Shown: piece after piece, positions 34,709 through 36,226 of the stretch | Layout of the letters: the number at the start of each line of letters is the position of its first letter | Numbering within the stretch: position 1 is the stretch's first letter | Origin: an uncultured Candidatus Melainabacteria bacterium | GTDB lineage: Bacteria > Cyanobacteriota > Vampirovibrionia > Gastranaerophilales > Gastranaerophilaceae | Assembly: GCA_950096985.1 (NCBI GenBank) | Contig: CATNBA010000013.1 | Coordinates: 1 to 44,190, forward strand | DNA: 44,190 nucleotides | Reading direction: 5' to 3' | The notes under the pieces: model-generated | Databases searched by the model: none | Seen by the model: the letters and a program-made list of their open reading frames with translations, nothing else | What the model was told of the DNA's origin: nothing | Made by a program: the position numbers and the translations under genes

Positions 34709-34737
34709 TTGACAAATTGTAGAAAATCGTAAATAAT
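34709..34737 (+). promoter_or_regulatory. Promoter of a likely antisense RNA
   Basis: TTGACA (34709-34714), 17 bp, AATAAT (34732-34737). Predicted start near 34744, directly at the AGTAGGGC that closes the structured region, and opposite to the small peptide gene. Confidence 0.6.
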
Positions 34738-34743
34738 GAAAAA

Positions 34744-34950
34744 GTAGGGCGAGCCCTTAACAACTTAAGCGATACTGTTAAGAGCTTCTTTGCACCCTAT
34801 AGTTTAACTTTTAATGCTATTACTGCTATTGCAAATGCCAGTAATAGCATTGTTATTTTGTTAACCATAGTTTTCAACCCTCCTTTCGTCCAATTTCTTT
34901 GTAATTGTGTGTGACGAGGGATGTCGAGTGTGCCCTACTCTTTTAAGAGT
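34744..34950 (+). ncRNA. Candidate structured antisense RNA over the 23-residue peptide gene
   Basis: The ends pair: AGTAGGGC (34743-34750) with GCCCTACT (34932-34939). Inside are CTTAACA/TGTTAAG, a 13-bp hairpin (AATGCTATTACTG with its exact complement) and a CCCTC/GAGGG arm. ACTCTT/AAGAGT (34937-34942, 34945-34950) with TCTTTT could terminate it. It spans the whole peptide gene and the 3' end of XRE gene 1. The layout recalls antisense antitoxins such as Sib RNAs. A 6S-like RNA is the alternative, but the fold is branched rather than rod-like. Confidence 0.45.
34797..34868 (-). CDS. 23-residue hydrophobic peptide, type I toxin-like
   Basis: Too short for ordinary gene callers. The ATG at 34868 is preceded by AAAGGAGGG with a 9-nt gap, the strongest ribosome site in this part of the window. 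The peptide starts MVNKIT, has the hydrophobic core MLLLAFAIAVIAL and ends in KVKL, so it is one membrane helix flanked by basic residues, like Ibs or Ldr-type toxins. The ribosome site can pair with an upstream CCCTC (34920-34916). It starts 66 nt after the stop of XRE gene 1 on the same strand, and an antisense promoter faces it. No homologue was searched. Confidence 0.6.
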   Translation of the reverse strand: MVNKITMLLLAFAIAVIALKVKL

Positions 34951-35264
34951 TCTTTTAAATCTTTTATTGATTTTAGGATGTATTTCTGCGTATCTAGCTC
35001 TAAACCATTAAGTTCTCTAATAATTGATTTTTCTATGCTGTTAGAGGTATGTGTTTCTTCAAAGTCAAATAGTTCGTAATAACTAATATCAAGTCCATTT
35101 TTTATATTTTCAATTGCTTTAAAAGAAACTCCTTTTAAACCACATTCAACCTGACCTAATGAATTTGTTTCAAAATCCATTAAATCTGCCAGTTCGTGTT
35201 GTTTTAATCCTTTTTTTATTCTTAATTCTCTAAGTTTTTTCCCGAATAATTTTTTCAAAGCCAT
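34935..35264 (-). CDS. XRE-family regulator 1
   Basis: A 109-residue DNA-binding protein. I start at ATG 35264 (MALKKLFGKKL), which aligns with MSLKKEFGKRI of regulator 2 and lies after the predicted transcript start (TACAAT 35283-35278); the ATG at 35276 would precede it. Residues ~8-62 form a helix-turn-helix (LRELRIKKGLKQHELADLMDFETNSLGQVE). The C-terminal ~45 residues are helical (YILKSIKDLKELL), probably for dimerisation. It is divergent to LuxR-type gene 1, and a palindrome lies between. It is a full-length paralogue of regulator 2. The peptide gene follows on the same strand. Confidence 0.85.
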   Translation of the reverse strand: MALKKLFGKKLRELRIKKGLKQHELADLMDFETNSLGQVECGLKGVSFKAIENIKNGLDISYYELFDFEETHTSNSIEKSIIRELNGLELDTQKYILKSIKDLKELLKE

Positions 35265-35304
35265 AATAAATAGCATAATTGTAAATAGAAAAAGTATCTA
35301 TTGC

Positions 35305-35387: not shown

Positions 35388-35627
35388 ATGAACGATATTT
35401 ATTCAAAGTATTATAATTTACCACATAGCGAGATGTTGTCATATTTGTTGTCCGGCAAGACTTATGCACAGATTGCACAGGAATATTACTTTTTTAATTT
35501 GAATAAGGTGTTATATAAGGTTAGAAAACTCCGTGAAACATTATGTTTGAGAAACCGCCGTCAGCTTGCATATTTTGCACTTGTGAACGGGTTGGTGGAT
35601 GTGGATAGGATTAGATGTAATCTTTAA
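35388..35627 (+). CDS. LuxR-type (GerE) helix-turn-helix protein 1
   Basis: A 79-residue protein formed almost only by a GerE-like DNA-binding domain: LPHSEMLSYLLSGKTYAQIAQEYYF, then KVLYKVRKLRETL and LRNRRQLAYFALVNGLV, which matches the end of LuxR-type domains. No receiver or ligand domain. TAGAAT ends 6 nt before the ATG, so a leaderless mRNA is possible. It is divergent to XRE gene 1 and overlaps the end of XRE gene 2 by 17 bp, tail to tail. A small activator or adaptor is likely; the target is unknown. Confidence 0.75.
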   Translation: MNDIYSKYYNLPHSEMLSYLLSGKTYAQIAQEYYFFNLNKVLYKVRKLRETLCLRNRRQLAYFALVNGLVDVDRIRCNL

Positions 35628-35931
35628 TATATGTATCAAGTGTTGCATTGATATAATCAAGTGTATTGTCGTCAACTTTTTTGAGTTTCATTATAATATT
35701 GTCAAGTTTGTTGCTTGTACTATTCCCAAAATTGAATAAATCTTTATAATCTAAGCATAGAGCTTTTGAAAGTTTTTCAATAGTTTCATCGCCTGCAAAA
35801 TTTATCCCTTTTTCCAGTTTGTATAGGGTGACTGTGTTTATGCCCATTCTGCCTGCCAGTTCCTCTCTGGATAAACCAAGCTCTTTTCTTATTTGTTCTA
35901 TTCTTTTCCCAAATTCCTTTTTTAGGCTCAT
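35611..35931 (-). CDS. XRE-family regulator 2
   Basis: A 106-residue protein with a helix-turn-helix near residues 8-62 (IEQIRKELGLSREELAGRMGINTVTLYKLEKG) and a helical C-terminus (KLDNIIMKLKKVDDNTLDYINATLDTYI). It aligns along its whole length with regulator 1, so they are paralogues. On the minus strand TGGATA, 17 bp, TACAAT (35943-35938) ends 6 nt before the ATG, with no Shine-Dalgarno, so leaderless. It is divergent to LuxR-type gene 2, with a separate palindrome between. Its own operator probably differs from that of pair 1. Confidence 0.85.
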   Translation of the reverse strand: MSLKKEFGKRIEQIRKELGLSREELAGRMGINTVTLYKLEKGINFAGDETIEKLSKALCLDYKDLFNFGNSTSNKLDNIIMKLKKVDDNTLDYINATLDTYIKDYI

Positions 35932-35983
35932 ACTAAAATTGTAGTCTATGGTTTGTTATTTATCCACTGCTTTTTAGGCTTGT

Positions 35984-36008
35984 AAATATTACACATTGTG
36001 CAATATTT
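35984..36008. promoter_or_regulatory. 25-bp near-perfect palindrome in divergent pair 2
   Basis: AAATATTACACA (35984-35995), T, TGTGCAATATTT (35997-36008): 12-bp inverted arms with one mismatch. It covers the -35 area of LuxR-type gene 2 (-10 TATAAT at 36013-36018). Sequence differs from the palindrome in pair 1. Confidence 0.65.
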
Positions 36009-36025
36009 GTTGTATAATTTTTTTT

Positions 36026-36226
36026 ATGGATAAACTTACTCCGTTGGAATTAGAGGTGATGCGACTGCTCGCTGAGGGGTTAGATGCATATTCTATTATG
36101 AATTGGCTCGGTATCGACTATCCTGAGTACGTCAAATGTAAAAATTCCATACTCAAAAAACTCAAAATCAAAAGAATTACTCAAATACTGCCGACTGCTG
36201 TCAGTCTTGGTCTGATTGACTTTTAA
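36026..36226 (+). CDS. LuxR-type (GerE) helix-turn-helix protein 2
   Basis: A 66-residue protein starting MDKLTPLELEVMRLLAEGL; the ATG at 36026 is preferred over the upstream in-frame ATG because TATAAT (36013-36018) ends 7 nt before it. The GerE-like domain continues with SIMNWLGIDYPEYVKCKNSILKKLKI and ends ITQILPTAVSLGLIDF. No sensory domain. It pairs divergently with XRE gene 2. Its stop lies inside the atpD promoter (TTGACT 36216-36221), so transcription from here may run into atpD. Confidence 0.78.
   Translation: MDKLTPLELEVMRLLAEGLDAYSIMNWLGIDYPEYVKCKNSILKKLKIKRITQILPTAVSLGLIDF

Follow-up and report, generated by a model that had tools for sequence, protein, structure and literature searches.

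In the 44,190-nt stretch of DNA that was analysed here (the window), a small locus that begins at position 34709 is very probably a type I toxin-antitoxin-like module that belongs to a multicopy and diversified family found, as far as searched, in a single family of the Gastranaerophilales. The source genome of this Melainabacteria representative comprises 1.65 Mb in 48 contigs. The assignment has comparative support of several kinds: the short ORF with its ribosome site is conserved, the promoters are convergent, the stems covary, the copies are multiple or tandem, and the peptides are diversified. An earlier note, made from the letters of the window alone, had proposed a type I-like locus at this place, and the core of its idea is strongly backed by the comparison; its description of the antisense coverage and of the XRE neighbour needs to be revised. 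Judged by sequence, the family is new, belongs to the type I kind, and is unusual in where its antitoxin terminator is predicted to lie.

All sequence elements named in that note were found in their places by direct reading. The toxin-like ORF (MVNKITMLLLAFAIAVIALKVKL, 23 aa) lies on the minus strand at 34797..34868 and encodes a single hydrophobic helix with basic ends; other copies and genomes have related peptides at this position. Its ribosome binding site, AAAGGAGGG, occupies 34878..34886 of the same strand, 9 nt 5′ of the ATG, and is immediately preceded by a 5′ UTR stem-loop (34887..34925, minus strand) with CGUC...GACG closing an inner hairpin. On the plus strand, the antisense promoter TTGACA-N17-AATAAT (34709..34737, with TTGACA at 34709-34714 and AATAAT at 34732-34737) scores highest among the promoter-like matches of the region (11/12); it is conserved family-wide and lies inside the family consensus TTGACAAA..AAATCGTAAATAAT. 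The predicted antitoxin RNA of about 110-119 nt would extend over 34744..34862 of the plus strand and begin with GTAGGGCGAG. Its start was predicted with the help of the promoter and of the conserved (R)YAGGG tag, and its end from a predicted intrinsic terminator (34813..34862, plus strand), consisting of a hairpin (34813-34851) and the U-rich tail GTTATTTTGTT and located in the complement of the toxin ORF. Two paired tags mark the ends of the region. The tag AGTAGGGC at 34743..34750 stands at the start of the antisense RNA and forms, as GCCCTACT, the 3′ part of the toxin mRNA; its partner, at 34932..34939, reads GCCCTACT on the plus strand and AGTAGGGC on the toxin strand, where it takes the conserved position of the mRNA 5′ end. 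The XRE/HTH regulator gene (34935..35276, minus strand; Pfam HTH_31, E 2.5e-5, below the cut-off) ends in this partner tag, the TAG of which doubles in the window copy as the XRE stop codon.

The window locus is one of eight copies in its own genome, seven intact and one decayed, and a DNA similarity search found copies both there and in related genomes. The genome-wide work consisted of pattern and family searches. By a strict search for the antisense promoter, the module is present in 95 of 286 Gastranaerophilales genomes, all in its own family, with up to 11 copies per genome and, in some genomes, tandem arrays of 3-7 units about 320 nt apart. The pattern TTGACA-N15-TAAATAAT followed by AGGG gave 51 matches in 33 genomes of the genus versus 0 for the reversed pattern. 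A hydrophobic ORF of 14-50 aa on the opposite strand, at a fixed distance and with the required ribosome site, was present at 121 of the 148 distinct promoter sites in the fetched DNA versus 49 of 5000 random positions (1%); the first share, 82%, is an upper estimate because some sites had been fetched by similarity to the locus or with the AGGG tag required. The motif scan of the own genome, free of both kinds of selection, returned 19 matches: the seven intact modules, the decayed one, seven sites before pilin-like genes, and others that look like chance. The decayed copy (L032, G000:C35:10810-10966) keeps the antisense promoter and the hairpin, while its ribosome site and toxin start region are gone.

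A peptide profile gave E 3.1e-10 for the window copy, whose peptide type was included in building it, and a peptide-profile search of 292 genomes of the phylum gave no matches outside the own family (f1). No match was obtained by tblastn of one peptide against phage and plasmid collections. One copy of the module is located on the viral contig IMGVR_UViG_3300010163_000078 (L063:2530-2801), between the genes for a baseplate hub and a tail tape measure protein, and resembles a phage cargo gene. The module also occurs in records titled Muribaculaceae (L051) and Brachyspira (L038), which are probably misbinned or mislabelled Gastranaerophilales contigs. As a separate observation, the same promoter motif also stands before genes whose N-terminus is pilin-like (GFTLAEVLITLGIIGVVAALTMPSL; loci L070, L071, L073, L075, L077, L079 and L080), the sites in the own genome being on C11, C13:29095, C13:42471, C16, C20, C26 and C31. 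In several of these genes the start codon is soon followed by about 10 consecutive C or G, a tract at which slippage would permit phase variation.

The earlier note had predicted that the antisense RNA covers the entire ORF. This does not agree with the terminator-like hairpin on the plus strand, which predicts an end near 34852-34862, among the first ORF codons. In the window copy, the antitoxin RNA is predicted to be complementary to the 3′ UTR of the toxin mRNA and to ORF codons ~4-23, and not to the start codon or the ribosome site. In the family as a whole, a terminator at or above the threshold was detected on the antisense strand in 78% of members, versus 0.5% of dinucleotide shuffles and 8% on the sense strand. 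The loosest threshold gave 85.6% versus 1.1% and a stricter one 25% versus 0%; the scan was not blind, since it was written once a few members had shown the pattern, and the two values differ widely at every threshold. The predicted antisense end falls inside the ORF in all members with a clear terminator (87/87). With such an end, the antitoxin RNA is predicted to measure about 75-115 nt; it would span the 3′ UTR, cover the ORF for a part or most of its length, and stop short of the ribosome site. An RNA gene antisense to the toxin mRNA and with its own promoter, as expected of a type I system, is predicted from promoter and terminator searches with controls.

In four peptide types of at least seven members each, the ORF hairpin exceeds in strength what synonymous codon choice would give (mean z -2.6, -4.5, -3.8 and -3.7). 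For the FNISL type the mean z is -0.9; here the terminator is located at the 3′ end of the ORF, so a central hairpin is missing. Antitoxin terminators within toxin coding sequences were sought in the literature by a narrowly worded and hence weak search, which found none.

On the toxin strand, most copies have a promoter-like pair with N17 spacing a few nucleotides before the (R)YAGGG tag. The toxin-strand promoter score reached at least 9 in 77% of 111 non-redundant members versus 27% of shuffles, which came from a first-order Markov sampler and not from an exact dinucleotide shuffle. The partner tag sits a few nucleotides after a -10-like box in most of the other copies. The window copy is an exception with a score of 7. 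As its toxin-strand promoter is poor, its toxin mRNA would rely on read-through from the XRE gene or on a weak start, and XRE read-through may be the source.

The stems were assessed by covariation, as the earlier note had advised, in an alignment of 19 members. Three helices are backed: one below the ribosome site, one formed by the ORF hairpin, and one that joins GUAGGG after the ORF stop to CCCUAC at the 3′ end. Double changes occur at 7 of 19 pairs and 98.6% of the cells pair, a value as high in 0 of 500 shuffles and at most 62% in slid controls, over which the structure has the advantage of being derived from the same alignment. The CGUC:GACG stem of the 5′ UTR covaries at three of its four pairs, and the 3′ tag element covaries with GUAGG(G/A) after the ORF stop. 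Since the 5′ tag is able to pair with this same 3′ element, an end-to-end fold-back as in hok or aapA is possible; matches within own pairs are longer than in permuted ones (5.9 versus 4.9), by a control that ignores relatedness. The ribosome site had also been supposed to be buried by an upstream CCCTC. This element is indeed there, as CCCUC in the 5′ UTR that can pair with GAGGG (GAGGG on the plus strand at about 34918-34922), but the pairing probability of the ribosome site is near average (mean 0.66 versus 0.63 overall) and lends no support to special burial.

The peptides of the family have 21-34 residues and are of membrane type, with a best-15-residue mean hydropathy mostly of 2-3.5 (121 sites). 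Nearly all members have AAAGGAGG or AAGGGGG, an SD-like site having been a selection criterion for them. Each thus combines, as in type I systems, a short hydrophobic peptide, predicted to insert into the membrane, with a ribosome site of its own. At least five dissimilar peptide types share the common layout: MVDKIIMLLLAFxIAVIALKL (the type of the window copy), MDKFNISLLLIFMILFVLKNGSYLNR, MKFxITEKALLLIxxIIIALK, MNRELIKKALLVIELLIRLIITLV, MKRQIIKAAIIAVITALKIALLFL, and rarer ones; the types were sorted by eye and regular expression, so kinship among the last-listed is possible. Selection on the coding frame is evident in the second-listed type, FNISL (pN/pS 0.43, codon position 2 least variable), whereas pN/pS is 0.89 in the type of the window copy, so that protein-level selection taken alone is weak there; its synonymous sites are also bound by the ORF hairpin.

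Judged from peptide character alone, the products would be toxic. None of six representative peptides matched a curated toxin family above the cut-off (Pfam, NCBIfam), where very short peptides match poorly. It is conceivable, though unlikely, that the same RNA control serves a small non-toxic membrane peptide, which might for instance regulate or modulate some membrane process. The case for a toxin is made up of RNA architecture and hydrophobicity, and the peptides have no relation to known toxin families, which leaves some room for this explanation. However, at least five dissimilar hydrophobic peptides use the one RNA chassis, the module is multiplied in tandem and patchily distributed, and a phage carries a copy; all this is more in keeping with selfish or defensive toxin modules than with a dedicated cellular regulator.

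The locus folds far more strongly than its shuffles on both strands (z -5.6 and -6.6), a property that would suit also a conserved rod-like structured RNA, such as 6S RNA, without any peptide. We give this explanation hardly any credit, as there are several copies per genome and the Rfam covariance models, including those of type I RNA families, gave nothing relevant at the locus at either gathering or loose thresholds. 6S RNA itself (RF00013), which the earlier note had named as the finding that would speak against a toxin locus, was rejected here: its only match in the genome, with E 1.5e-7 and below the Rfam gathering score, lies on another contig (C5:19068-19252, L183).

The type I-like module is flanked by dnaJ on one side and, on the other, by a small island of HTH genes followed by the gene for ATP synthase beta; this gene and dnaJ were identified by eye from translations. 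The small HTH-type ORFs between the module and the ATP synthase beta gene occupy 35388-36226 and encode proteins of 79 aa (no Pfam match), 106 aa (HTH_3) and 66 aa (GerE-like, below the cut-off); the whole block is missing in the relative G010 (L195). In a close relative, whose dnaJ protein is 97% identical, dnaJ adjoins the ATP synthase gene without HTH genes and without the module. The HTH island has therefore been gained or lost as a block. The empty dnaJ-atpD site of a close relative, together with multiple copies and the inverted terminal tags GTAGGG...CCCTAC, might point to a small MITE-like mobile repeat with inverted ends and a fortuitous ORF. This origin is very improbable, since the conserved antisense promoter falls outside the inverted tags, dissimilar sequence versions retain the ribosome site and the ORF, one type shows coding-frame selection, and the empty site lacks the whole HTH block, not merely the module.

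The position directly behind an XRE gene had been regarded as an unusual part of the locus. The adjacency is real and enriched: in the own genome an HTH gene lies within 600 nt of six of the eight copies, against about 0.3 copies expected by chance (37 HTH_3 matches in 1.65 Mb, clustering ignored). An XRE/HTH neighbour was found in 18 of 103 testable members (17%), each pointing toward the module; for all neighbours pooled, 106 point toward it and 64 away. In the sister genome the body of the module is 97.4% identical and dnaJ DNA 87%, whereas the XRE has 41% protein identity and 50-78% DNA identity, about 50% beyond the last 60 nt. The body is thus far better conserved than the XRE, a preferred neighbour that evolves on its own. 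The idea of a fixed toxin-XRE operon was rejected, as most members have no XRE neighbour and the XRE diverges separately. The XRE gene is a frequent neighbour and not a core part.

The following mechanism would agree with these data. The minus strand would give a short mRNA, typically about 200 nt long, for a hydrophobic peptide that probably enters and perturbs the cell membrane. From the near-consensus plus-strand promoter, just beyond the mRNA 3′ end, an antisense RNA would be transcribed as far as the terminator lying in the toxin ORF. It would pair with the 3′ UTR and the coding region, leaving the ribosome site untouched, and, by analogy with TxpA/RatA and BsrG/SR4, would probably lead to cleavage of the duplex by RNase III and/or refolding of the mRNA. 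The new or full-length mRNA is probably held inert by stems at the ribosome site and between the RNA ends, which covariation backs in part.

Ibs peptides are 18-19 aa long. The family resembles Ibs/Sib of E. coli in its very short hydrophobic peptide, opposite-strand RNA and several short-repeat copies per genome, but Sib spans the whole ORF and the ribosome site (PMC4147584), while the antisense RNAs described here are predicted to end within the ORF and the peptides have no sequence kinship. The antitoxin is therefore not Sib-like in coverage, since it probably terminates in the ORF, short of the ribosome site. AapA/IsoA of Helicobacter pylori is similar in having a peptide of about 30 aa, an mRNA of ~225 nt, end-to-end pairing and ribosome-site hairpins, and has the -10 box of its antisense promoter within the toxin ORF (PMC6733600); in our family the antisense promoter lies downstream of the ORF and the terminator within it. 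TxpA/RatA and BsrG/SR4 of Bacillus subtilis share convergent transcripts, 3′ overlap and an uncovered ribosome site (PMC4147584, PMC12390103). RatA, however, does not overlap the coding region (PMC4147584), whereas here the overlap would extend through part or most of it, and the peptides are unrelated in sequence. Small hydrophobic peptides are likewise found in Ldr/Rdl, where Ldr has a tandem arrangement, and in Fst/RNAII, which has convergent RNAs (PMC4147584); unlike our antisense RNAs, Rdl overlaps the 5′ UTR. Within the phylum Cyanobacteria, the type I-like MsoT1/MsoA1 of Microcystis aeruginosa is comparable, as the binding target of MsoA1 comprises the 3′ end of the coding region together with the 3′ UTR, but MsoT1 has 63 aa and two predicted membrane helices (PMC12390103) and belongs to a different lineage, the comparison being one of descriptions.

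We lean, with some reserve, towards a new class, in which a fixed RNA chassis carries exchangeable peptides and the antitoxin has its intrinsic terminator within the toxin coding sequence and acts without the ribosome site. If so, the hairpin and the U-run would limit the toxin codons (AAA/ATA runs before a palindromic hydrophobic stretch), and the antitoxin would work via the coding region and the 3′ end. The two strands of one stretch of DNA would then have different roles, one coding for a membrane peptide and the other for the signal that ends its inhibitor. Before the cyanobacterial report of 2025, type I systems had been described only from Proteobacteria, Firmicutes and Tenericutes (PMC12390103), and in the portions of the literature reached by a non-exhaustive search no report of them in Melainabacteria was found. 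A large diversified family in these non-photosynthetic gut relatives of cyanobacteria would broaden the range of type I systems and offer many natural variants to compare, and the DNA signature of the module lets further members be found.
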